DNA of 12,722 nt from Actinomycetota bacterium (GTDB lineage Bacteria > Actinomycetota > Actinomycetes > Nanopelagicales > Nanopelagicaceae), in contig CANIAV010000013.1 in the NCBI GenBank assembly GCA_947465365.1, positions 1 through 12,722 on the forward strand, in the 5' to 3' direction. The position numbers and the translations under genes are program-made. A model generated the notes under the pieces. The model worked only from the letters and a program-made list of their open reading frames with translations, was not told the DNA's origin and did no database searches. Below, one piece after another: positions 1,246 to 12,430 of the stretch (position 1 is its first letter; each line of letters opens with the position of its first letter).

Positions 1246-1548
1246 ATGGCAATTACCCCACCGCAGTATCTGCTTCATCATGATGGCGATAACGTGGCCG
1301 TTGCGATGATGGATATGCAGCCAGGAACTCTTCACGGTCGATCCGTGAAAGAAGGAACAGAGAGCACCGCGGTTTTAAATCACGCGATTCCGCTCGGCCA
1401 CAAATTTGCCCTAACAGATATTGCAAGCGGCGAAGCGATCATTAAATACGGAATCAAGGTTGGACTTGCTTCAGCTGCGATCAAAAAAGGCGATTACATT
1501 CACACACACAATATGAGGAGTTATCGATGGGAAGCAAGCCGCGCTTAA
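1246..1548 (+). CDS. suyA: (R)-3-sulfolactate sulfo-lyase, small (alpha) subunit SuyA
   Basis: A 100-residue SAF-domain protein, the small subunit of a two-subunit UxaA-superfamily lyase. With SuyB it cleaves (R)-3-sulfolactate to pyruvate and sulfite in the cytoplasm. Seen: an N-terminal segment with HHDGDNVAVAM, the central IPLGHKFALTDI and VIKYG segments typical of the SAF fold, and the closing YIHTHNMRSYRW, which resembles the HVHN-K-RW ending of known SuyA proteins as I remember them. A good ribosome binding site, GAGAGAGG at 1228-1235, precedes the ATG. Its last 22 bases overlap suyB, which points to coupled translation of the two subunits. Small subunits of altronate or galactarate dehydratases share this fold; the identity rests largely on SuyB and the neighbouring genes. 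Confidence 0.85.
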   Translation: MAITPPQYLLHHDGDNVAVAMMDMQPGTLHGRSVKEGTESTAVLNHAIPLGHKFALTDIASGEAIIKYGIKVGLASAAIKKGDYIHTHNMRSYRWEASRA

Positions 1549-2693
1549 TGGGATACCGCCGCGAAAACGGCGCTATGGGTATCCGCAATCACGTAATTAT
1601 TCTGCCCCTTGATGACCTATCAAATGCTGCCGCAGAAGCTGTAGCAAAAGTCATTCCAGGCACTCTCGCATTGCCGCATGCATTCGGACGCCTGCAATTT
1701 GGTGAAGATCTAGAGCTGACTTTCAATACTTTAATTGGTACTGGCGTAAACGCCAACGTTGCCGCCGTCGTTGTGATCGGCATTGAACCAAAATGGACAC
1801 AACGCGTAGCTGATGGAATTGCAAAGACAGGCAAACCTGTTGCAGCATTTTCAATCGAAGGCAAAGGCGACCTTAAAGTAATTCAAGAAGCAAGTCGCGT
1901 AGCAGCGATGTTCCTACAAGATGCATCTGGCCTGGAACGTGAAGCAGCCGAAATGGGCGACATGATTATGTCGATCAAATGTGGCGAGTCAGATACAACT
2001 TCAGGACTTGGTTCTTGCCCGACTACGTCACAAGCAGTCGATCGCTGGGTAGCCGCCGGTGGAACGGTCTTCTTTGGCGAAACATCTGAGCTAACTGGTG
2101 GCGAACACTTAATCGCTGACCGTTGCATCGACGATGCTTGCCGCGATCTATTCCAACTCACTTACGACAATTACATAAAGGTAATTGAAGCAACGGGTGC
2201 AAATCTTCTAGGTTCACAGCCAACACAAGGAAATATTGCTGGCGGACTTACAACTATTGAAGAGAAGGCCCTTGGAAATATCGCTAAGACTGGTTCGGTT
2301 CCAGTTGTTGGAGTTCTAAAGCCAGCAGAAGCGCCAGACCCAAAGAAAAAAGGCCTTTACTTTATGGATTCTTCTTCGGCAGCAGCAGAGTGCGTAACTC
2401 TGATGGCAGCAGGTGGCGCAGTTATTCACTTATTCCCAACGGGACAAGGCAATGTGATTGGTAATCCAATTATCCCTGTCCTGAAGTTAACAGCGAATAT
2501 CAAGACTGCTAACTCAATGACTGAACACATCGATCTCGATGTTTCTGGACTATTGCGTTATGAATATGACTTAACCAAGGCTGGCGACATGATGATGGAT
2601 GTCATTAATCAAACTGTTAACGGACGCCTCTGCAAGGCGGAAGTTATGGGCCATCGTGAATTCACCTTCACAAAGTTGTATATCTCCGCATAA
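1527..2693 (+). CDS. suyB: (R)-3-sulfolactate sulfo-lyase, large (beta) subunit SuyB
   Basis: A 388-residue catalytic subunit of the UxaA/GarD superfamily that eliminates sulfite from (R)-3-sulfolactate, leaving pyruvate. Seen: an N-terminal GYRRENGAMGIRNHVIILP segment, IGIEPKWTQRV near residues 90-100, KCGESDTTSG near 151-160 (likely metal and substrate residues), FGETSELTGGEHL, GGLTTIEEKALGNI, MDSSSAAAE and FPTGQGNVIGNP. These agree with SuyB sequences I recall and differ from altronate dehydratases, which are about 100 residues longer and carry the SAF domain on the same chain. Start ATG at 1527 is preceded by GAGGAG at 1515-1520, inside suyA. The stop TAA shares a base with the next start. 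Sulfo-lyase is strongly preferred over sugar-acid dehydratase because of the downstream slcC-comC-exporter genes. Confidence 0.9.
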   Translation: MGSKPRLMGYRRENGAMGIRNHVIILPLDDLSNAAAEAVAKVIPGTLALPHAFGRLQFGEDLELTFNTLIGTGVNANVAAVVVIGIEPKWTQRVADGIAKTGKPVAAFSIEGKGDLKVIQEASRVAAMFLQDASGLEREAAEMGDMIMSIKCGESDTTSGLGSCPTTSQAVDRWVAAGGTVFFGETSELTGGEHLIADRCIDDACRDLFQLTYDNYIKVIEATGANLLGSQPTQGNIAGGLTTIEEKALGNIAKTGSVPVVGVLKPAEAPDPKKKGLYFMDSSSAAAECVTLMAAGGAVIHLFPTGQGNVIGNPIIPVLKLTANIKTANSMTEHIDLDVSGLLRYEYDLTKAGDMMMDVINQTVNGRLCKAEVMGHREFTFTKLYISA

Positions 2694-3631
2694 TGATTCT
2701 CATCTCTGAGGATGTCTGGGGAACTCCCTTCCAAAAACTGGAGGGGAGTTTTCCCATTGTCAGAAGCGACGACTTGTGGAAGAACCCAGATGAATTAAAG
2801 AATTTAATAAAGGATGTAACCGCCTTGGTTGTGCGAAATAGAACCAAAGTAACTGCAGATGTTATTGCGGCCGCTCCAAATTTAAAGGTGATCGCTCGCG
2901 CCGGAGTTGGTCTAGACAATATTGATATCAAAGCCGCTGATGCAGCAGGCGTTGTAGTCGTTGCCGGCCTGGGTGCAAACGCTGTAAGTGTTGGCGAATT
3001 AACTTTAGGTTTGGCGCTATCTCTTTTAAGAAATATTCCAGGACATGATTCAGTTACTCGTGACGGAAACTGGATCCGCACTCCGGGTCGCGAATTGTCA
3101 GGCCTAACCTGGGGGCTACTTGGATGCGGAGCAACTGGTTTAGCAACCGCGAAGTTACTTCAGGGATTTGGTTGCACAATTATCGGATATGACCCGTATG
3201 CCAAGGATTTGCAGGGAATCGAGCAAACGACTTTTGAAAAAGTTTTAAAGCAGAGCGATGTTGTAAGTATTCATATGCCATCGACTACTGAAACAAATGG
3301 TTCCATAAATTCCGAGACTCTCAAATTGATGAAGCCTGATGCGGTCATAGTAAATGTTGGACGTGGCGAAGTTATAAATGAAGCAGATTTAATGAGCGCT
3401 TTGCAGGCAAAGGTAATTGCTGGTGCTGCCCTAGATGTCCGTGCGCAGGAACCTCCGGTAAAAGGCGAAATGGAAATTATTCCAAACCTAATTTTGACAC
3501 CGCATGTCGCTGGTATAACCAAAGAAAGCCAACTGCGAATAAATGAAATCCTTGCCTCTAACATCTGGAAAGTTTTAAAGGATGAATCTGCTACCCATGC
3601 CGTTGGCGCCTTAAAAGTAAGCAGCAACTAA
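2693..3631 (+). CDS. slcC: D-2-hydroxyacid dehydrogenase, probable (S)-sulfolactate dehydrogenase SlcC
   Basis: A 312-residue NAD-dependent enzyme of the D-isomer 2-hydroxyacid dehydrogenase family (phosphoglycerate dehydrogenase-like). Expected reaction: (S)-3-sulfolactate to 3-sulfopyruvate. Seen: the ARAGVGLDNID segment at about 69-78, a Rossmann GLLGCGATG at 141-149 with D167 as the NAD-ribose acidic residue, and the catalytic trio R224 (NVGRGEVI), E253 (AQEPP) and H271 (TPHVAG). There is no C-terminal regulatory ACT domain, so it is not a full serine-biosynthesis SerA. The ATG overlaps the suyB stop by one base. In known sulfolactate clusters SlcC works with ComC to convert the S to the R enantiomer used by SuyAB. 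Family is certain; the substrate is inferred from context. Confidence 0.78.
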   Translation: MILISEDVWGTPFQKLEGSFPIVRSDDLWKNPDELKNLIKDVTALVVRNRTKVTADVIAAAPNLKVIARAGVGLDNIDIKAADAAGVVVVAGLGANAVSVGELTLGLALSLLRNIPGHDSVTRDGNWIRTPGRELSGLTWGLLGCGATGLATAKLLQGFGCTIIGYDPYAKDLQGIEQTTFEKVLKQSDVVSIHMPSTTETNGSINSETLKLMKPDAVIVNVGRGEVINEADLMSALQAKVIAGAALDVRAQEPPVKGEMEIIPNLILTPHVAGITKESQLRINEILASNIWKVLKDESATHAVGALKVSSN

Positions 3632-4638
3632 TGGCGCAACTCACCGTTGGCTCAGCAATCGAACAAGCAAAATCCTTACTGATTTCTAGTGGAGTTCCTG
3701 TGCAAGAGGCTGAAACCACAGCACGTTGCATCGTTGCAAGTGATCGTTGGGGAATAGGAAGCCATGGGTTAATGCGACTTCCTTTCTATCTGGCACGTTT
3801 ACAAGCTGGCGGTATCAAGGCAGATGCAAAGTTTAAAATAGTTACTGATCTACCAAGCTTGGTGGTCTTTGATGGTGACGATGGGCTTGGCCATTGGCAG
3901 TTACAGAAAGCCGCCGAAACTGCTGCAGAACGTGCTCAAAAAAATGGAATTGCAGCTGTTGGTATTGGCCGCTCCAACCATTGTGGCGCTTTGGGAATCT
4001 ATGTTTGGCCGATGATTAATAAAGGTTTAGTTGGAATTGCATTCAGTACCGGCCCAGCAGTAATGCCTCCTTGGGGCGGAAGTTCAGCGCTGCTCTCAAC
4101 TTCACCTATTGCCGCCGGAATTCCCACAAATCCTCCAACAGTTATAGACCTTGCAACAAGTGCGGTAGCAAGAGGGAAAATTCAAGCAAAGGCGCAAGCT
4201 GGAGCTGAACTTGAGCCAGGTTGGGCATTTACCAAAGAAGGTGCGCCAACAACTGATGCCAAAGAAGCGCTAGCAGGAATGTTGGCACCGCTGGGTGGAG
4301 TAAAGGGTTACGCGATTGCGGTATTGGTCGAATCTCTAACAGGAATGTTGATTGGGCCATCCTTGGCAAAAAATATCCCAGATATGTTCTCGGCGGATCA
4401 AGATGCAAAGCCACAGGAGATTTCACATTTTATAATTGCAATAGATTCTGCAAAGTTATCGGTAGATGGTGAGAATTCAAGAACTTCTGATTTTCTAACT
4501 GCCATCACTGATGCTGGAGGACGTCTACCTGGATCAAATCGTGTTAATCCGGAGAATCTAGATATGGCAGAAAGCATCACAATCACAGATCAGGTAGCAG
4601 ATCAGCTATCGCAGTGGTCGGCTAAGTTGGGAATTTAA
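3631..4638 (+). CDS. comC: Ldh2/MDH2-family dehydrogenase, probable (R)-sulfolactate dehydrogenase ComC
   Basis: A 335-residue NAD(P)H-dependent malate/L-lactate/sulfolactate dehydrogenase, a family without a classical Rossmann fold. Expected reaction: reversible sulfopyruvate to (R)-3-sulfolactate. Seen: DRWGIGSHGLMRLP with H45, GRSNHCGALG with H117 (probable catalytic region), RGKI at 181-184, GWAF at 197-200, and the KGYAIAVLVESLTG cofactor/dimer segment from K225. The start overlaps the slcC stop (TAATG). With SlcC it would racemise sulfolactate through sulfopyruvate, feeding the R form to SuyAB. Malate or ureidoglycolate dehydrogenase activities belong to the same family, but the operon makes sulfolactate the best choice. 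Confidence 0.8.
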   Translation: MAQLTVGSAIEQAKSLLISSGVPVQEAETTARCIVASDRWGIGSHGLMRLPFYLARLQAGGIKADAKFKIVTDLPSLVVFDGDDGLGHWQLQKAAETAAERAQKNGIAAVGIGRSNHCGALGIYVWPMINKGLVGIAFSTGPAVMPPWGGSSALLSTSPIAAGIPTNPPTVIDLATSAVARGKIQAKAQAGAELEPGWAFTKEGAPTTDAKEALAGMLAPLGGVKGYAIAVLVESLTGMLIGPSLAKNIPDMFSADQDAKPQEISHFIIAIDSAKLSVDGENSRTSDFLTAITDAGGRLPGSNRVNPENLDMAESITITDQVADQLSQWSAKLGI

Positions 4639-5652
4639 ATGATCAAGACCGCCCCCGGACTTGGGCTTATTGGAGCAGTTGTAGCCATCGCTTTTCAAAT
4701 CCATAATTTCCAACCTGCGATTAGCCCGTTGGCGCTCTGTGTTGCCTTTGGGTTCGCAATTGCAAACTTTGCGGCGTGGCCAACATTTGCAACTGCAGGG
4801 ACAACCCTTGCGAGTAAGAAATTGATGCGGATCGGTGTAGCGCTACTTGGAGCACAAGTGAGCGTACTTTCTCTTAAAGCAATTGGCGTCAAGGGAGTTA
4901 TTACCGTAATTCTCGTTGTTACTTTTACGATCGTTGGAATATTGACGCTCTCCAAAATATTTAATATGAGTGGTGAACTTGGCCTGCTTATTGGCGTCGG
5001 TTTCGGTGTATGTGGAGCAACTGCCGTTGCCGCAATCCGTCCACAAACTCGGGCGACAGAAGAAGAAACTTCTTATGCAATCGCTTTGATATCTCTCTGT
5101 GGCACACTGTCAATTTTTATTCTGCCATTTCTTGGCCATCTACTCGGATTATCTGATCAAACTTTTGGCTCTTGGGCTGGTGCTGCAGTACACGATGTTG
5201 GTCAAGTAATTGCGACCGCATCTGTCTGGAGTGATGATGCAGTCAAATCTGCAGTAGTAATTAAATTAGCTCGCGTCTGCTTACTGGCCCCAATAGTTTT
5301 AATTCTTTCCATACGTCACCGCCGCTACCTAACTTCAATTGCACATAAGAACGATCTAACAACGGATCAAGCAAATCAAAAAAATAGCAAGGTGCCGCTA
5401 ATTCCATTCTTTGTAATAGGTTTTATTGCTGTAGCTATAATTCAAAATACGTTAGATATTCCAACAGGTCTTCATGATGCGATTGTTCTAATCAGCAAAA
5501 TTCTTTTAGGTGCGGGTCTTGTAGCGCTGGGGTCAAGCGTTCGGTGGAGATCAATCCGTGCAATCGGACCAAGACCATTGGTTATGGGAATGATCGCCTG
5601 GGTAATTGTTGCTGGAGTGGCTCTTGTTGCAGTACAAATCACTGGACTCTGA
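4639..5652 (+). CDS. suyZ: YeiH/SuyZ-family putative sulfite/sulfate exporter
   Basis: A 337-residue polytopic membrane protein of the conserved hypothetical 698 family, with around ten hydrophobic helices. Seen: the family signatures GVGFGVCGATAVAA near residues 117-130 and the later AVHDVGQVIATASVWSDD followed by AVVIKLARVCLLAP, both in the places expected of discontinuous helices lining the transport path. The start codon directly follows the comC stop, so it is the fifth gene of the same transcription unit. SuyZ in Paracoccus was proposed to export the sulfur oxyanion freed by SuyAB. No sulfite-oxidising enzyme is present in the window, so either sulfite is exported directly or oxidation is encoded elsewhere. 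A polar loop of about 30 residues (HRRYLTSIAHKND and following) interrupts the helices near residues 227-255. Confidence 0.82.
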   Translation: MIKTAPGLGLIGAVVAIAFQIHNFQPAISPLALCVAFGFAIANFAAWPTFATAGTTLASKKLMRIGVALLGAQVSVLSLKAIGVKGVITVILVVTFTIVGILTLSKIFNMSGELGLLIGVGFGVCGATAVAAIRPQTRATEEETSYAIALISLCGTLSIFILPFLGHLLGLSDQTFGSWAGAAVHDVGQVIATASVWSDDAVKSAVVIKLARVCLLAPIVLILSIRHRRYLTSIAHKNDLTTDQANQKNSKVPLIPFFVIGFIAVAIIQNTLDIPTGLHDAIVLISKILLGAGLVALGSSVRWRSIRAIGPRPLVMGMIAWVIVAGVALVAVQITGL

Positions 5653-5729: not shown

Positions 5730-5765
5730 TTGCGAGTATTGCTAACTCCACGAAAGGGAGACAAC

Positions 5766-6611
5766 GTGCAAAAACCTAAATCGCTAATTTTCGCAGTAAC
5801 AATTGCTCTTGCATTTGGTTTAACTGCTTGCTCAAAGTCAGAGTCGACCGACGTTGCTTCAGCATCTTGCGCAAAAGCTGATCTTGCGACTGTTACTTCT
5901 GGCAAACTTACAATCGCAACGGGGGAGCCTGCTTACTATCCTTGGGTAATCGATGACAAGCCAGAGACCGGTGAAGGTTTTGAAGGAGCTGTTGCATACG
6001 CAGTTGCCAAACAACTGGGCTACACAAATGATGAAGTTGTCTGGGTTCGTACCACATTTGATGGCGCAGTCACGCCAGGTGAGAAGAATTTTGACTTCAA
6101 TTTGCAGCAATTCTCAATCACTGCGGATCGTTCAAAGGTAGTTGATTTCTCATCACCTTATTACACCGCTCCACAAGCAATCGTCTCTTACAAGGGCAGC
6201 AAGATTGCCGGCAAGACTTCTATTGCAGATCTGAAGAGTGCCAAGCTTGGCGCCGCAGTTGGCACAACTTCACTTGATGCAATCGAAAAACAAATCGGTA
6301 TCAAGCCACAGGTATTTAATGACAACGCTTCTGGAGTTACCGCACTTAAGAATGGTCAGATCGATGGTCTAGTAGTAGACCTTCCAACTGCCTTCTATCT
6401 CTCAGGAGTTGAAGTAAAAGATGGTCTAATTGTTGGTCAGCTTCCATCAACTGGTGCTGGCGATCAATTTGGTCTCTTGCTGTCAAAGGGAAGCAAGCTA
6501 ACAAAATGCGTTACTGGCGCAGTTGATGCAATTACTGCCGATGGCACTCTGGCTGCAATTACTGATAAGTGGTTAGCCACTGATGCAGGCGCACCAGTTT
6601 TAAAGCCATAA
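5766..6611 (+). CDS. ABC transporter substrate-binding lipoprotein, polar amino acid family
   Basis: A 281-residue extracytoplasmic solute-binding protein of the bacterial family 3 (SBP_bac_3) type. The GTG at 5766 is chosen because AAAGGGAG at 5753-5760 is a strong ribosome binding site and because translation then opens with a lipoprotein signal peptide: MQKPK, a hydrophobic stretch, then lipobox LTAC with C22 as the lipidated cysteine. An upstream in-frame TTG at 5730 would spoil this. The mature protein has GEGFEGAVAYAVAKQLGY, FDFNLQQFSITADRSKVVDFSSPYY and AAVGTTSLDAI, the normal family landmarks. Two further cysteines occur (C35 region and C-terminal KCVTG), which may form a disulfide. 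It should deliver ligand to the permease and ATPase encoded next. Ligand unknown; amino acids, cysteate-like sulfonates or opine-like compounds are possible. Confidence 0.88.
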   Translation: MQKPKSLIFAVTIALAFGLTACSKSESTDVASASCAKADLATVTSGKLTIATGEPAYYPWVIDDKPETGEGFEGAVAYAVAKQLGYTNDEVVWVRTTFDGAVTPGEKNFDFNLQQFSITADRSKVVDFSSPYYTAPQAIVSYKGSKIAGKTSIADLKSAKLGAAVGTTSLDAIEKQIGIKPQVFNDNASGVTALKNGQIDGLVVDLPTAFYLSGVEVKDGLIVGQLPSTGAGDQFGLLLSKGSKLTKCVTGAVDAITADGTLAAITDKWLATDAGAPVLKP

Positions 6612-6655
6612 GCAACTTGCTGTAAAAGTTAGATAAACGCGGTAGTTTGGCGACC

Positions 6656-7522
6656 ATGTCAGAGCGAAATCACTCTGCTTGGTCGCCAAGCTCACGCGAA
6701 TTACAACGTCGCGCACTTCGTCGTAAATTGAGTCGCAAGCAAGCTTTAATTGCTGCTGTTTCATCAATACTGGTTTTAGGCACGCTCACGACAATTTTGG
6801 TTACATCCCCAGGGTGGGAAGTCGTAAAGGCAACATTCTTTGACATTCAATACGGAAAAGAAGTATTTCCTACCGTCCTTAAAGGTCTCTGGATAAATCT
6901 GCAGTTAACTTTCTTTGGCGGAGTAGCAATTGGAATTATCGCTATGGGGCTTGCGCTCATGCGAACTACCAAGTCTCCGGCGCTTACGCCATTTAGATTT
7001 TTAGCTACGGCTTACGTTGATATCTTCCGAGGCGCACCGCTGATCTTGATCATCTTGTTAGTTGGCTTCGGAGTTCCAGCCCTTCGCCTGCAAGGGGTAT
7101 CCAGCAATGTGATTGTTCTCGGAACAATTGCGGTTGTACTTACCTATTCTGCATATGTGGCAGAAGTTATTCGCTCGGGAATTCTATCCATTCATCCCAG
7201 CCAGAGAGCTGCTGCTAGATCACTTGGCTTAACTTCTGGCCAAACAATGCGCTTTGTTGTATTACCTCAGGCGCTACGCCGAGTTGTACCGCCGCTGCTA
7301 AATGACTTTGTATCTCTATTAAAAGATACCGGCCTAGTTTCAATTCTTGGAGTTACAGATGCAGTACGTGCAGCACAGATAAATGCCAGTCGAACCTTTA
7401 ACTACACACCTTATGTAGTTGCCGCAATCCTCTTTTTACTTATAACTATTCCAATGACGCGCTATACCGATCGTGCCATCCGCCATCGGACACAAGCGCA
7501 AAATTCGGAAGGGGCGATTTGA
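6656..7522 (+). CDS. ABC transporter permease, polar amino acid (HisM/GlnP) family
   Basis: A 288-residue inner-membrane permease. Seen: a positively charged N-terminus (RRALRRKLSRKQ), a first helix near residues 31-52, the FPTVLKGLWINLQLTFFGG opening of the conserved permease domain, and the cytoplasmic coupling loop SIHPSQRAAARSLGL followed by LPQALRRVVPPLLNDFVSLLKDT, which docks on the ATPase. The single permease gene suggests a homodimer. The ATG at 6656 is preferred; an in-frame TTG at 6647 would add three residues. No strong ribosome binding site is visible before either. The gene begins 44 bases after the binding-protein gene and ends in TGATG, overlapping the ATPase start. Confidence 0.9.
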   Translation: MSERNHSAWSPSSRELQRRALRRKLSRKQALIAAVSSILVLGTLTTILVTSPGWEVVKATFFDIQYGKEVFPTVLKGLWINLQLTFFGGVAIGIIAMGLALMRTTKSPALTPFRFLATAYVDIFRGAPLILIILLVGFGVPALRLQGVSSNVIVLGTIAVVLTYSAYVAEVIRSGILSIHPSQRAAARSLGLTSGQTMRFVVLPQALRRVVPPLLNDFVSLLKDTGLVSILGVTDAVRAAQINASRTFNYTPYVVAAILFLLITIPMTRYTDRAIRHRTQAQNSEGAI

Positions 7523-8268
7523 TGGCTAACGTCCTTGAGCTACAGAACGTCCGTAAAGCATTTGGATCTGAAGTTGTCTTGAATAATCTCTCATTACAAG
7601 TTCCTGAGCACACCGCCACTGTTCTAATTGGAGCATCTGGATCTGGAAAGTCCACGCTGCTGCGATGCATTAATTTGCTAGAAACGATCGATGATGGGCA
7701 GATATTTTTGGATGGTCAGGAAATCACCGACCCTTCAATTAAAGTTGACGATGTTCGCCGTAAATTAGGAATGGTCTTTCAATCCTTTAATCTCTTTCCT
7801 CATAAAACCGTTCTGGAAAATATCACCCTCGCTCCAGTTAAAGTCCAAGACAAGAGCGAAGATGAAGCGTATGAGATTGCAACAAAACTCCTATCCCGGT
7901 TTGATCTGGCAGATAAAGCAGATCAATACCCAGATCGTTTAAGCGGGGGACAGCAACAACGCGTTGCAATTATTAGATCGTTAGCGGTTAATCCGCGACT
8001 ACTTTTATTAGATGAAATTACTTCAGCCCTTGATCCAGTTCTTGTAAATGAAGTCTTAAGTATTGTGCGTGATCTTAAACTGGATGGTATGACGATGGTT
8101 CTGGCTACCCATGAGATGGGATTTGCCACACAAGTAGCCGATGAAGTCTGTTTCTTGGAATCTGGAAATATTCTGGAACGAGGAAGTGCTGAGCAAGTAC
8201 TTAAAAACCCGACAGATCCAAAAACTCAAGAATTCCTAAAGCGAGTACACCAAGCAGGCCGGCTTTAG
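7522..8268 (+). CDS. ABC transporter ATP-binding protein, polar amino acid (GlnQ/HisP) family
   Basis: A 248-residue cytoplasmic ATPase, the usual length. Seen in order: Walker A GASGSGKST at 37-45, Q-loop Q87 (VFQSFNLFPH), signature LSGGQQQR at 140-147, Walker B LLLLDEITSALD with D164 and catalytic E165, and the switch histidine H197 (ATHEMG). All residues for ATP hydrolysis are intact. The ATG at 7522 overlaps the permease stop by one base and has GGAAGGGG upstream at 7507-7514. It powers import through the preceding permease and lipoprotein. It is the last gene of the three-gene transporter set; a 50-base gap follows before mtnA. Confidence 0.93.
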   Translation: MANVLELQNVRKAFGSEVVLNNLSLQVPEHTATVLIGASGSGKSTLLRCINLLETIDDGQIFLDGQEITDPSIKVDDVRRKLGMVFQSFNLFPHKTVLENITLAPVKVQDKSEDEAYEIATKLLSRFDLADKADQYPDRLSGGQQQRVAIIRSLAVNPRLLLLDEITSALDPVLVNEVLSIVRDLKLDGMTMVLATHEMGFATQVADEVCFLESGNILERGSAEQVLKNPTDPKTQEFLKRVHQAGRL

Positions 8269-8318
8269 ATTTAATTTTTTAGGTGATAAGTTCAAGGCCT
8301 TAACTAGGGAGTATTTGG

Positions 8319-9332
8319 ATGTCTAGCGTGATCGAGGCAATTGTCTGGAAAGACAACAGGATTGTCTTACTTGATCAAACCCAAATTCCCATCTCTGAAA
8401 ATTACATTTCATATGACGAGCTAGCCCCATATATCGACGCCATTCAACGCTTGGTCGTTAGAGGAGCTCCCGCTCTCGGTGTTGCAGGTGCTTACGGAGT
8501 AGTCCTTGCAATAGATGAGGCAGCGCGAAAAGGACATAACGCCAACGAGTTAGAGCACAAAATTGATTTGCTTCGTGATGCTCGCCCAACTGCCGTTAAT
8601 CTGGCATGGGCGGTTGAGAAGATACGCAAACATTTACCGGAAGGCCGTGACGCTGTCCTTGCTGCGGCGCACCAATTGGCGAGAGAAGATAAGCAATCGA
8701 GCACCGATATGGGAAATATTGGCGCTGATTGGTTAATAAACAAATTAGGCTCAAAACCTTTAACACTTTTGACACATTGCAATACTGGTTCGTTAGCAAC
8801 TACCGGTACAGGTACTGCATTAGGCGTAATCAAAGAGTTGCATAAGCGCGGAAATGTAAAAGAAGTTTATGCAGATGAGACTCGTCCGTTGCTGCAAGGT
8901 TCAAGACTTACAGCTTGGGAACTTATGAAATCTGAGATCCCTTATCGAATCGAACCAGATGGCGCTGCTGCGATGGCGATATTAAGCGGACGTATTGATG
9001 CTGCTCTGATTGGCGCGGATCGAATCGCAAAGAACGGTGATTCAGCGAATAAAATTGGTTCACTCAGTGTGGCTCTGGCTTGTCACGCCGCAGGAATTCC
9101 TTTCTTGGTAGTTGCGCCTGAATCAACGGTTGATCGGTCAATTGCAACTGGCGGCGATATTCATATCGAGATTCGTGGAGATGAAGAGCTAACGCAATTT
9201 AAAGGTATTCAAGTGGCGCCACTTGGTGCAAAGACATTTAATCCAGCATTTGATGTAACGCCAGCAAAGTACATAAGCGCAGTTATCACTGAAAAACAAT
9301 CCTATGAAATAGCAGAGGGCCAAACGTTATGA
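8319..9332 (+). CDS. mtnA: S-methyl-5-thioribose-1-phosphate isomerase family protein (MtnA-type)
   Basis: A 337-residue member of the eIF2B-related aldose-1-phosphate isomerase family. MtnA converts 5-methylthioribose-1-phosphate to 5-methylthioribulose-1-phosphate; some members also act on 5-deoxyribose-1-phosphate. Seen: the VRGAPALGVAGAYG phosphate-binding segment at 47-60, catalytic C154 in THCNTGSLATTG, the ADETRPLLQGSRLTAWEL signature starting near 185, and catalytic D234 in IGADRIAKNGDSANKIG. The ATG at 8319 follows AGGGAG at 8306-8311. The gene overlaps the aldolase fusion by four bases (ATGA), so its product probably feeds that enzyme. Ribose-1,5-bisphosphate isomerase is a related alternative but the signatures and length fit MtnA better. 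No MtnK kinase or MtnP phosphorylase is present in the window. Confidence 0.87.
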   Translation: MSSVIEAIVWKDNRIVLLDQTQIPISENYISYDELAPYIDAIQRLVVRGAPALGVAGAYGVVLAIDEAARKGHNANELEHKIDLLRDARPTAVNLAWAVEKIRKHLPEGRDAVLAAAHQLAREDKQSSTDMGNIGADWLINKLGSKPLTLLTHCNTGSLATTGTGTALGVIKELHKRGNVKEVYADETRPLLQGSRLTAWELMKSEIPYRIEPDGAAAMAILSGRIDAALIGADRIAKNGDSANKIGSLSVALACHAAGIPFLVVAPESTVDRSIATGGDIHIEIRGDEELTQFKGIQVAPLGAKTFNPAFDVTPAKYISAVITEKQSYEIAEGQTL

Positions 9333-11299
9333 GTGAATTAAAACCGCTACATGATCTAGTCGCACGTTCTCAGAAGATCGGTGCTGACCAGTCAATGGTT
9401 GTTTACGGTGGCGGTAATACCTCAAGTAAAGGAGAGATTAAAGATCACCTCGGTCGCCTGAAGAAAGTTTTATGGGTTAAGGGCTCTGGCGCAGATATGC
9501 AATATGCCATCGATCGCGATTATCCCGCGCTATATCTAGAAGATTTATTAGCGCTACGGGATTTTGATGCGTTAGATGATGACACGATGGTTGATTATGT
9601 GACTCGTGCATTGGTTGATCCAACTTCACGCAGACCTTCTATCGAAACTCTTTTACACGGCTTCTTGCCTGCTAAACACATTGACCACGTGCACGCAGAT
9701 GCTATTTGTGCGCTGACGAATCATCCGCAAGGCGAAAAGGCTGTGCGTGAAGCCCTCGGTGAAAATTTTGCATACGTTGATTGGCTTCGCCCTGGATTTA
9801 ATCTCTCAAAGATAGTTGGCGGCCTCGGAGATTATGCCGGTGTCGTACTTGCACATCATGGACTAGTTGTTTGGGATGAAGATTCAGATCGTTGTTATCA
9901 AAAGACGCTAGATACAGTCGCTCTGGCAGATAAGTATTTAGATTCGCTAAATAAGCGCCCTGCGGCAAACTTCCAGCACCAGGATCTACCTGATGAAGAG
10001 CTAAAAGATTTACTACTTAAATTACGTGGAACAATTGGCAAGAAGCAGTTACTACGCACCGATAAACGTTTGGCAGAGATTGCATCTCGTCCGGATCTAA
10101 AGAAGATTCTCGCCCTTGGCGCATCGAGTGCCGATCACATGCTGCGGATTCGTCCCAAGTCAGCAACCGTAACTTTGGAAGATACCGAGACTGGCATAAA
10201 GGAATTTCGTGAGAATTACGCCGCCTACTTTGAAGCGAATAAATCATTGCTTCCGGCCGGTTATGTCAGCCATGGCAATGATCCTAAAGTCATCATCGTT
10301 CCTGGAGTCGGCGCAGTAACAGCTGCAACCACAATTAAAGAGAACACGATGTTGGCAGATATTGCCTCCCACACTCATAAAGTTGCCGCACGGGTTGTAG
10401 ATGTCTTTGGCGATGGTGACACTATTTCTGACGCCGAGATTTTCGGCTTTGATTACTGGCCGATGGAGTTATTTAAGTTAAAGAATAAGCCGGCACCTGC
10501 TCAACTAGATGGCCACATCATTATCGTAACTGGCGCCGGCAGCGGCATCGGTCGTGGGGTTGCGTTAGAACTTGCTAAACGTGGAGCGCACTTAGTGCTT
10601 GCTGATATTGAAGAAGCCGGGCTAATTGAAGTTGAAAAGGAATTTGCTGAAAATAAGTGCAATCCTCCTTTATTGATTTTGGGAGATCAGTCCAAGGAAG
10701 CAGATGTTCAGGCAACTGTTACAAAAACTATTAAGCACTTTGGCGGCTTAGATGGTGTAGTTATCAACGCCGGCATTGGAATTAGCGACAAGCTAGAAGA
10801 TCTAGATGTTGAGAAATGGCGCCGTGGTTTAGATATCAACTTATCTAGCGCTTTTATGTTGACTAAAGAAGCAATGAAGGTGATGCGCAAGCAGAAGATG
10901 GGCGGATCGCTGGTTTATATAGCGAGCAAGAACGCATTTTCACCAGGTGCTGGCTTCGGCGGTTATTCAGTGAGCAAGGCAGGAATGCTGCAGTTGATGC
11001 GTATTGCATCTCTGGAAGGTGGAAGCGCCGGAATTCGCTGTAATGGAATTAACCCTGATGCCGTATTTGATAACAGCAAATTGTGGGAAGGCGGTATTCG
11101 CGAACAACGTGCAGCTGCACATGGCGTGAAACCAGAAGAGCTTGAAGATTTCTATGCCTCTCGCAATCTTCTTAACGCGCGAGTTAGAAGCCTTGATGTA
11201 GCCCGAGCTGCTGCCTTCTTCTTAAGCGATGAATCATCGCGTACTACTGGTAGCGTCATCGCAGTAGATGGTGGCGTTGCTGCCGCATTCCCAAGGTAG
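9329..11299 (+). CDS. Bifunctional class II aldolase / short-chain dehydrogenase fusion
   Basis: A 656-residue two-domain protein like the rhamnulose-1-phosphate aldolase/alcohol dehydrogenase family. Aldolase half: GGGNTSSK at 27-34 and KGSG at 51-54 (phosphate binding), E106 (SIETLLH, likely catalytic), zinc ligands H120 and H122 (DHVHAD), and AHHG at 175-178 with the third metal histidine. SDR half: TGAGSGIG at 401-408, NAG at 480-482, and catalytic S533, Y546 and K550 (YSVSK). All key residues of both halves appear intact. It starts within the mtnA stop, so the likely aldolase substrate is a 5-substituted ribulose-1-phosphate, giving dihydroxyacetone phosphate and an aldehyde that the SDR half could reduce or oxidise. 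L-rhamnulose-1-phosphate is the textbook substrate for the fold, but no rhamnose isomerase or kinase is nearby. Confidence 0.85.
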   Translation: MSELKPLHDLVARSQKIGADQSMVVYGGGNTSSKGEIKDHLGRLKKVLWVKGSGADMQYAIDRDYPALYLEDLLALRDFDALDDDTMVDYVTRALVDPTSRRPSIETLLHGFLPAKHIDHVHADAICALTNHPQGEKAVREALGENFAYVDWLRPGFNLSKIVGGLGDYAGVVLAHHGLVVWDEDSDRCYQKTLDTVALADKYLDSLNKRPAANFQHQDLPDEELKDLLLKLRGTIGKKQLLRTDKRLAEIASRPDLKKILALGASSADHMLRIRPKSATVTLEDTETGIKEFRENYAAYFEANKSLLPAGYVSHGNDPKVIIVPGVGAVTAATTIKENTMLADIASHTHKVAARVVDVFGDGDTISDAEIFGFDYWPMELFKLKNKPAPAQLDGHIIIVTGAGSGIGRGVALELAKRGAHLVLADIEEAGLIEVEKEFAENKCNPPLLILGDQSKEADVQATVTKTIKHFGGLDGVVINAGIGISDKLEDLDVEKWRRGLDINLSSAFMLTKEAMKVMRKQKMGGSLVYIASKNAFSPGAGFGGYSVSKAGMLQLMRIASLEGGSAGIRCNGINPDAVFDNSKLWEGGIREQRAAAHGVKPEELEDFYASRNLLNARVRSLDVARAAAFFLSDESSRTTGSVIAVDGGVAAAFPR

Positions 11300-11314
11300 A
11301 AACAGTCCTATAAC

Positions 11315-11322
11315 AAAGGTGG
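11315..11322 (+). promoter_or_regulatory. Ribosome binding site of the RuBisCO-like gene
   Basis: AAAGGTGG lies 10 bases before the ATG at 11333. It fixes the start and shows that this gene, unlike its coupled neighbours, has its own initiation signal. The following AAGCGCTT (11323-11330) is a perfect 8-bp palindrome between this site and the start codon. Confidence 0.6.
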
Positions 11323-11332
11323 AAGCGCTTTA

Positions 11333-12430
11333 ATGGATCGTATTTACGTAACTTACGCATTTGTAGGTGAAAACCCAGCTGCTATCGCCGATGTAATTAG
11401 GGTAGAACAAACGATTGAATTTCCATACGAGCTTGCGCCAAGTTGGATTCAAGAAGAAATTGTTGGAAAGATAGAAGAGATTTCATCGCAAGATAAAACC
11501 AATCATTTGATCACTATCTCCTATAACCCTGATGTGGCCGGGGGAGAGCTAAATCAATTATTGAACGTACTTTGGGGCAATGTCTCACTATTTCCTGGGG
11601 TGAAGATGGTTGATCTCAAATTGCCTATGCAACTTTTACAGAAATTTGCTGGGCCTCGTTTTGGAATTAGTGGATTACGTAAATTATTTAACGCACCGAC
11701 CCGTCCTTTAGTTGCAACAGCGCTTAAACCTATGGGATCAGATGCCAAAACGTTGGCAGAAGTTGCGCGCACCTTAGCGCTGGCGGGTTTTGACCTAATA
11801 AAAGATGATCACAGTTTGGCAAATCAACCTTGGGCAACTTGGAAAGATCGAGTAACTTTAATTTCGCAAGCAGTCAATGAAGCAAATGCGACCACTGGTG
11901 GCAGCTCTGTTTATGCCCCAAGTTTAAATCTACCTTTTGATCAAATTAGCGATGCGGCACACACTGCGAAAGAGTTAGGAGCTGGTGCTTTATTGGTTAT
12001 TCCAGGAATCACTGGTTTTGATTCTCTCCGTAAAATTGCATCAGATAATTCGATCGCACTTCCAGTTCTGGGTCACCCGGCGATGTTGGGTTCATTAGTG
12101 ATATCTAAAGATGAGGGAATCTCACACGGAATCGCATTGGGAACCTTTATGCGCCTTGCTGGTGCTGATATTTCAATCTTCCCAAATATTGGGGGACGCT
12201 TCTCATTTACTTCCGCCCAATGTTTAGAGATTGCAGATCGCTCACGTGAAAACTTAGGGAAGTTAAAACCAATAATGGTCGCCCCAGCAGGTGGCATGAC
12301 TTTGGAGCGAATCCCAGAAATGATCGAGATGTATGGCAAAGATGCTGCTCTATTGATCGGTGGCGCTCTCTCTCGCGGACACTTGGCAGATAACGCTGCT
12401 CGCATGTGCGAAATGGTGCGCGCCTACTAA
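11333..12430 (+). CDS. RuBisCO-like protein (form IV), reaction unassigned
   Basis: A 365-residue protein with the RuBisCO large-subunit fold, shorter than true RuBisCO (about 460-475). By my alignment to spinach numbering: K175 is kept as K132 (LKPMG), K177 becomes M134, the carbamylated K201 is kept as K157 and D203 as D159 (IKDDH), E204 becomes H160, H294 is kept as H248, H327 becomes I282, K334 becomes R289 (GGRF), and S379 becomes A319 (APAGGM). The phosphate-binding glycines G320-G321 and G343-G344 remain. It therefore cannot be a normal carboxylase but should still bind a metal and a phosphorylated, enolisable sugar. Known form IV roles include enolase (MtnW), isomerase in the MTA-isoprenoid shunt, and decarboxylase/transcarboxylase in apionate catabolism. 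Its place 33 bases after the aldolase fusion suggests a related phosphosugar substrate. Confidence 0.88.
   Translation: MDRIYVTYAFVGENPAAIADVIRVEQTIEFPYELAPSWIQEEIVGKIEEISSQDKTNHLITISYNPDVAGGELNQLLNVLWGNVSLFPGVKMVDLKLPMQLLQKFAGPRFGISGLRKLFNAPTRPLVATALKPMGSDAKTLAEVARTLALAGFDLIKDDHSLANQPWATWKDRVTLISQAVNEANATTGGSSVYAPSLNLPFDQISDAAHTAKELGAGALLVIPGITGFDSLRKIASDNSIALPVLGHPAMLGSLVISKDEGISHGIALGTFMRLAGADISIFPNIGGRFSFTSAQCLEIADRSRENLGKLKPIMVAPAGGMTLERIPEMIEMYGKDAALLIGGALSRGHLADNAARMCEMVRAY

Follow-up and report, generated by a model that had tools for sequence, protein, structure and literature searches.

The question raised by this locus is which pathway places a RuBisCO-like protein (RLP) beside an isomerase of methionine salvage and an aldolase. 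The stretch analysed here, the 12,722-nucleotide contig CANIAV010000013.1, hereafter the window, corresponds to contig C13 in a genome of the genus Planktophila (G000; 948 kb, 57.75% complete) and carries three contiguous plus-strand genes, namely mtnA, a gene for a class II aldolase fused to a short-chain dehydrogenase (SDR), and the RLP gene. Among named records, the closest is the IMCC26103 chromosome (CP015604.1, complete), whose RLP is 98% identical to that of the window, and the RLP of Candidatus Planktophila lacus shows 82% identity. A first-pass annotation of the window had proposed an undescribed pathway, with either a branch point at a 5-substituted ribulose-1-phosphate or a linear route. 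Judging from the sequences, we consider it likely that the trio is the middle of the known 5'-methylthioadenosine (MTA)-isoprenoid shunt, with the aldolase/SDR fusion as a side branch of the dihydroxyacetone phosphate (DHAP) shunt type. The host and the gene arrangement with its fused branch enzyme are new; the pathway itself is known, and the proposal of an undescribed pathway in this organism is not supported, as partner genes elsewhere in its genome spell out the published shunt.

The trio would serve the salvage of MTA, and possibly of another 5'-deoxynucleoside, with the other parts encoded on other contigs of G000. The imported nucleoside would be deaminated and phosphorolysed by products of contig C4 to 5-methylthioribose-1-phosphate, from which MtnA would form 5-methylthioribulose-1-phosphate, the putative branch point of two arms. 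In one arm, the RLP would shift the ketone along the chain to give 1-methylthioxylulose-5-phosphate, a cupin encoded on contig C41 would free methanethiol and leave 1-deoxyxylulose-5-phosphate (DXP) for isoprenoids, and the O-acetylhomoserine sulfhydrylase encoded beside the cupin would convert methanethiol to methionine. The second arm would be a DHAP shunt run by the fusion: its aldolase half would cleave 5-methylthioribulose-1-phosphate into DHAP and 2-(methylthio)acetaldehyde, and its SDR half would oxidise or reduce the aldehyde. Sequence shows what the genes encode, to which clade the RLP belongs and with which motif, and that the partners are present and co-occur; all reactions in this organism, the substrate and the SDR role are predicted ones. 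An aldolase arm and an RLP arm were reported to act in parallel on the same substrate in Rhodopseudomonas palustris (PMC5893883). The branch point envisaged by the first-pass annotation, with the aldolase on one arm and the RLP on the other, is the part of its proposal that gains support. If the scheme is true, oxygen-independent recycling of MTA to methanethiol and DXP would extend from purple bacteria to freshwater actinobacteria, in a lineage that is abundant and is not known to assimilate sulfate, and a protein annotated as 'RuBisCO large subunit' would become a testable isomerase.

The isomerase, the fused aldolase and the RuBisCO-like protein

The window RLP matches Pfam PF00016, and its top NCBIfam model is MtnW (212 bits, cut-off 409); it passes no NCBIfam cut-off among the models listed. 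The best PDB match is 3qfw (250 bits), which we take to be the R. palustris RLP1, followed by 4nas (156 bits) and the MtnW chain 2oek (135 bits). In a tree of 24 RLP and RuBisCO rows, which did not include the Rhodospirillum rubrum RLP, the window RLP falls within a clade of 18 rows (support 99/96) together with 3qfw, the Terrarubrum RLP, whose gene has a cupin gene directly downstream, and RLPs linked to a transketolase, with MtnW outside; the tree program warned of meeting long branches, both between this clade and MtnW and in the rows for form I, OiaX, Vibrio and Ponticoccus. Five branches within the clade have no resolved order, and the window RLP stands on an actinobacterial one (100/99), of which the other old members are transketolase-linked. 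The metal-site motif reads KDDH in the window RLP, 3qfw and the Terrarubrum RLP, KEDH in Ponticoccus, KEDD in Vibrio, and KDDE in MtnW, 4nas, OiaX and RuBisCO. Both KDDH (at 157 of the window RLP) and GGRF (at 287) are common to 3qfw and the cupin-linked Terrarubrum RLP, for which 3qfw was the sole PDB chain at 1e-40. Tree and KDDH motif place the window RLP in the DeepYkr clade of 1,3-isomerases. According to previous studies, the DeepYkr RLPs of R. rubrum (Rru_A1998; PMC4958253) and R. palustris (RLP1; PMC5893883) convert 5-methylthioribulose-1-phosphate to 1-methylthioxylulose-5-phosphate.

The ratio of nonsynonymous to synonymous change (dN/dS) of the RLP, computable in nine of 13 pairs, ranges from 0.044 to 0.141 and points to purifying selection, the values being rough because synonymous sites are close to saturation in seven of the nine. 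An acid-sugar role like that of OiaX was rejected (75 bits with the OiaX model, cut-off 700; separate clade in the tree), and the RLP was also rejected as the sole source of DXP, since DXS scored above its cut-off in 19 of 19 genomes.

MtnA lies above the curated NCBIfam threshold (TIGR00512, 392 bits, cut-off 279), matches PDB chain 1t9k at 3e-72, and has the motifs HCN at 153 and GAD at 232, which presumably hold the catalytic Cys and Asp. The fusion comprises the Pfam domains Aldolase_II (11-200) and adh_short (397-579), contains the motifs HVH, LAHHG, TGAGSGIG and YSVSK, and scores 554 bits with PRK08324.1-4 (cut-off 1014) and 518 bits with RhaD_aldol-ADH (cut-off 568). Copies 74-99% identical to it stand behind mtnA in relatives (L numbers below denote stretches, G numbers genomes), both with an RLP and without one (L050, L051). 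Because it follows mtnA in either case, and R. palustris runs aldolase and RLP in parallel, the fusion would most simply be a DHAP-shunt aldolase carrying its own dehydrogenase. Its class II aldolase domain, HVH and LAHHG motifs and linkage to mtnA are observed; a 5-deoxy-5-X-ribulose-1-phosphate as its substrate, a feature of the DHAP shunt, is predicted.

The first-pass annotation had described the trio as contiguous, with a four-base overlap between the first two genes and a 32-base gap before the third; gene coordinates bear out the contiguity and the overlap (9329-9332), and correct the gap to 33 bases (11300-11332). Its remark that mtnB, mtnX, mtnD, mtnK and mtnP are missing from the window agrees with the window proteins identified, none of which is any of these. 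Rfam and tRNA searches of the window gave no match. A protein search gave 2184 matches, and the 120 listed all reach at least 79% identity.

Table 1. Position and basis of assignment of the features in the window
Feature	Position	Strand	Size and basis
mtnA, 5-methylthioribose-1-phosphate isomerase (to 5-methylthioribulose-1-phosphate)	8319..9332	+	337 aa; NCBIfam, PDB, motifs
Class II aldolase fused to short-chain dehydrogenase	9329..11299	+	656 aa; Pfam domains, NCBIfam below cut-off; putative substrate
RuBisCO-like protein, predicted 5-methylthioribulose-1-phosphate 1,3-isomerase (DeepYkr type)	11333..12430	+	365 aa; PDB match, clade, motifs
Polar-amino-acid-type ABC importer, membership uncertain	5730..8268	+	Binding protein 5730-6611, permease 6647-7522, ATPase 7519-8268

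Partner genes and alternative readings

Contig C4 of G000 encodes, in order, a BMP-type binding protein, two open reading frames (ORFs) taken as permeases, an ATPase, a phosphorylase, a deaminase and an SDR. The phosphorylase exceeds the cut-off of the methylthioinosine-phosphorylase model (249 bits, cut-off 223), and a phosphorylase and deaminase of the C4 kind directly follow the RLP gene in L026 and L053. A second phosphorylase, with an ORF of 245-254 aa, either accompanies or replaces the common one (277-aa frame) in 10 of 11 genomes with RLP and is found in none of seven without (18 genomes); the RLP genome G114 has two phosphorylases of another kind. Homologues of the cupin encoded beside the Terrarubrum RLP were sought in 19 genomes and occur in nine, each of which has RLP. 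The homologue in G000, on contig C41, has as top PDB chain 3jzv (3e-42), named Rru_A2000, which was reported to be the methylthioxylulose-5-phosphate sulfurylase (PMC4958253). It adjoins the O-acetylhomoserine sulfhydrylase gene (TIGR01326, 596 bits in G000, cut-off 495), and the two were divergent neighbours in five of the five genomes looked at. By homology, G000 would possess each partner of the shunt, namely the cupin sulfurylase, an MTA or methylthioinosine phosphorylase together with MtnA, and the O-acetylhomoserine sulfhydrylase. The gene mtnK was not found in G000 or in the complete genome G105.

Across 135 genomes of the genus, mtnA occurs in 19, RLP in 16, the phosphorylase in 19, the cupin in 11, mtnK in four and a close tktC, discussed below, in five. 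mtnA and phosphorylase occur together in 18 genomes, RLP and mtnA in 15, RLP and phosphorylase in 15, and RLP and cupin in 10, so that the grouping of RLP with mtnA is more than chance. Completeness is at least 90% in 44 high-quality genomes, of which the same seven (G001, G101, G102, G103, G105, G111 and G158) contain RLP, phosphorylase and cupin, while mtnA is found in those seven and G139. At E 1e-10, each genome with an RLP yields a single one; G057 gives two matches, which look like fragments of one.

Several observations weigh against the shunt. The low completeness of G000 is one of them, and another is that the shunt parts are spread over several contigs rather than forming one operon. 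The fusion lies under the cut-off of every NCBIfam model among the best 25 of 224, and in L021 (7999-9969; G001) it consists of two ORFs in one frame with a break in the SDR half, either real or an assembly error. On C4, the permease calls rest on size and place, the importer fits putative B6-transporter models best and below cut-off, the phosphorylase is under the MTAP cut-off (247 bits, cut-off 275), and the deaminase is below the cut-offs of the best 25 models listed. The identity of 3qfw as R. palustris RLP1 is a presumed one; the window RLP groups in the tree with transketolase-linked actinobacterial RLPs, away from the cupin-linked pair, and it evolves faster than mtnA and the fusion. 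The cupin was not found in six of the 16 RLP genomes, namely G048, G108 and G114 (52-85% complete, with transketolase) and G047, G057 and G134 (74-81% complete). Conversely, G107 (81% complete) has cupin and phosphorylase with RLP and mtnA not found, and G006 and G171 have mtnA and phosphorylase with RLP and cupin not found, these three genomes being 64-81% complete. Co-occurrence within one genus also partly reflects shared descent, and the p-values ignore kinship.

Other readings of the trio differ in substrate or in the order of reactions. If 5'-deoxyadenosine were the true substrate, MtnA would yield 5-deoxyribulose-1-phosphate, the RLP would form DXP directly with no sulfur step, and the aldolase arm would give DHAP and acetaldehyde. 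Consistent with this, the C4 deaminase also matches the 5'-deoxyadenosine deaminase model (262 bits, cut-off 522), and clusters of kinase, isomerase and aldolase have been reported for 5-deoxyribose (PMC6079011); however, the cupin resembling the methylthioxylulose sulfurylase, present in 10 of 16 RLP genomes and in seven of the seven of high quality, would have no job, and we regard this reading as unlikely; both substrates may be used. The linear route offered by the first-pass annotation, in which the aldolase/SDR product passes to the RLP, draws on the adjacency of the two genes, which recurs with no gene between them in L016, L017, L018, L019, L021, L022 and L057. In other relatives, however, mtnK (L020), mtnK-tktN-tktC (L023), tktN-tktC (L052) or importer-mtnK-transketolase genes (L024, with tktN in pieces, and L054) intervene, so that the adjacency looks like a remnant after loss of mtnK and split-transketolase genes and therefore provides no argument for this route. 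Moreover, the portions of L053 and L040 that were inspected contain an RLP but no fusion, L050 and L051 contain the fusion but no RLP, and the window RLP carries the motif of enzymes that use the product of MtnA itself, which leaves the linear route highly improbable.

Ordinary methionine salvage through MtnBWXD, with the aldolase as a mere neighbour, shares mtnA with the trio and has in MtnW the top model for the RLP. The first-pass annotation had named an RLP of the MtnW clade together with mtnBCD elsewhere in the genome as signs of such salvage, and a trio not conserved in relatives as a sign of chance grouping, and on each count the outcome favours the annotation: the RLP lies far below the MtnW cut-off and outside the MtnW clade, the genomes hold a single RLP, MtnD (PF03079) was found in none of 21 genomes searched (MtnB, MtnC and MtnX were not searched; of 14 control genomes, five matched, two of them above cut-off), and the grouping is conserved. 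MtnW-type salvage was thus rejected, its probability being close to negligible. Alternatively, the RLP might be a leftover of an ancestral RLP-transketolase module that now does little, the aldolase arm alone being functional. A transketolase is linked to each of the four actinobacterial RLPs that fall outside the subgroup of the window RLP (L026, L052, L053 and L054; subgroup support 93/96, not starred; forks below it unsupported), the RLP changes faster than its neighbours, and G171 has no RLP at the same place. Against this, dN/dS is low, the motifs are kept and the cupin tracks the RLP, so that a leftover appears very unlikely.

Split transketolases beside the RuBisCO-like protein in relatives

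In relatives, an unusual split transketolase, encoded by tktN and tktC, accompanies the RLP. Among the 40 listed of 361 records from a plasmid search, 24 carry an RLP of this kind (at least 34.8% identity), and 11 of these were examined, hand-picked and including two with a transketolase named beforehand. The pair tktN-tktC stands directly 5' of the RLP gene in 10 of the 11; mtnK and mtnA are present in eight, mtnA alone in one, the aldolase/SDR fusion at the stretch edge in seven, and the cupin in one. At E 1e-15 the cupin was found on two plasmids (Terrarubrum and Thiodictyon) and on none of the 10 with transketolase, the chromosomes of those strains not having been searched.

Numbered by Escherichia coli TktA, all 15 TktN sequences (L024, in pieces, and L061 omitted) keep H66, D155 and N185 and have H26 replaced by Tyr, H100 by Met, H261 by Leu and G154 by Ser, and all 17 TktC sequences keep E411, R358, R520 and H473, with S385 in 16 of 17, H461 replaced by Phe and D469 by Gly; both sets include L056, the contig of which stops short of any RLP. 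The putative catalytic Glu is thus retained by the split transketolase, along with most of the residues for cofactor and phosphate. H26, H66, H100 and H261 are all present in two ordinary split transketolases of the genus, which likewise depart from TktA at 461 and 469, so that only the TktN changes are special. We take H100 to contact the C1 hydroxyl of the donor and H461 its phosphate; Met at 100 would then suit a donor whose C1 bears H or CH3S, as the RLP would make, and the loss of H461 would speak against an unchanged phosphate site. The TktN substitutions suggest another fate for the RLP product.

Tentatively, and with somewhat less than even confidence in the proposal as a whole, in these relatives the split transketolase rather than the cupin would consume the RLP product, 1-X-xylulose-5-phosphate (X = CH3S or H), cutting it like xylulose-5-phosphate into glyceraldehyde-3-phosphate and X-acetyl-thiamine diphosphate (ThDP); where X is CH3S, departure of the thiolate as methanethiol could yield acetyl-ThDP, by analogy with phosphoketolase. 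MtnK, MtnA, TktN, TktC and RLP would then make up a hitherto undescribed route that takes methylthioribose or 5-deoxyribose, and the cupin may have replaced the transketolase in Planktophila. An undescribed route may exist in relatives that retain the transketolase; no paper on an RLP-transketolase route was found by title among the open-licence PMC papers listed. These clusters provide an assayable candidate for the further fate of the RLP product in culturable Rhizobiaceae.

Within the genus, 19 tktC matches were obtained, of which five were counted as close and 12 were of the ordinary kind, G013 and G137 (41-42% identity) being dropped. The simplest reading is that the transketolase was lost in a lineage that possessed or acquired the cupin. 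Cupin and close tktC coexist in G029, and the nine other genomes with cupin and RLP lack a close tktC; with 11 cupin genomes, five with close tktC and one with both, the counts do not show mutual exclusion. Of the 12 genomes with the ordinary split transketolase of Planktophila, eight also have RLP; this transketolase was not taken as the RLP partner because it keeps H26, H66, H100 and H261 (two copies aligned) and because of its sugar-gene neighbours in L046. There (7745-11976), as well as in L047 and L048, it is a second split transketolase, next to glycerol-kinase-like and rhamnose-isomerase-like genes in L046.

Other arrangements were also observed. A Vibrio nigripulchritudo plasmid (L042, 6994-12629) carries the transketolase pair, an RLP and an FGGY kinase with no mtnA in the stretch; another substrate is likely for this RLP, because its motif is KEDD, not KDDH. 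A Ponticoccus plasmid (L040, 2611-11134) has the order phosphorylase, amidohydrolase, mtnA, molybdopterin oxidoreductase, tktN, tktC and RLP. In L051 (1296-5478; G171), mtnA and the fusion are directly followed by a FUSC gene, the RLP being absent at its usual place. Two records titled Bifidobacterium breve and Streptomycetaceae (L020 and L025) carry Planktophila-like genes with RLPs 81-82% identical to that of the window, and the names of these metagenome-assembled genomes look wrong.

Neighbouring genes and comparison with known systems

The binding protein of the ABC importer upstream of mtnA (Table 1) matches Pfam SBP_bac_3. An importer of this type also lies directly 5' of mtnA in L016, L020, L021, L022, L049 and L057, and is not upstream of mtnA in L018 and L055. 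In L050 (5679-10724; G139), it follows mtnK together with a sulfate/sulfite exporter of YeiH type, and the 16 kb inspected there contain neither RLP nor suyAB. Further upstream, the window (1246-5652) encodes a SAF-domain protein, a GD_AH-type dehydratase, a 2-hydroxyacid dehydrogenase, an Ldh_2 dehydrogenase and a YeiH exporter, which are also present in L016/L078 and L057. The top model of the Ldh_2 dehydrogenase is L-sulfolactate dehydrogenase (200 bits, cut-off 500), and the cluster looks like one for sulfolactate breakdown, its genes presumably being those named SuyAB, SlcC and ComC. In its place 5' of mtnA, L018 (2499-6927), L022, L049 and L058 have rhodanese, Gfo/Idh, apionate-lactonase-like (263 bits, cut-off 750) and SDR genes.

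Among known systems, the rhamnulose-1-phosphate aldolase/lactaldehyde dehydrogenase fusion has the same domain order as the window fusion, which nevertheless stays below the cut-off of that model; no rhamnose genes were recognised next to it in the window. OiaX and other acid-sugar RLPs belong to the same RuBisCO family, whereas the window RLP is in a separate clade. Universal methionine salvage (MtnABWXD / MtnC) shares MtnA, but the window RLP is not of MtnW type and MtnD is missing from the genomes searched. The DHAP shunt (MtnK or MtnP, MtnA and the class II aldolase Ald2) likewise sets mtnA beside a class II aldolase, and G139 has mtnA, the aldolase/SDR fusion and mtnK without an RLP; unlike in that shunt, the window aldolase is fused to an SDR, and mtnK is found in just four of the 135 genomes. 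The MTA-isoprenoid shunt of R. rubrum and R. palustris has homologues in G000 of its phosphorylase, MtnA, DeepYkr-type RLP, cupin sulfurylase and O-acetylhomoserine sulfhydrylase. It differs in that the host here is actinobacterial, that RLP and cupin are on separate contigs rather than side by side, and that the window RLP is on a different branch from 3qfw and the cupin-linked Terrarubrum RLP. In addition, since the deaminase adjoins the phosphorylase, a first deamination to methylthioinosine is suggested, as a further difference from the shunt of purple bacteria.

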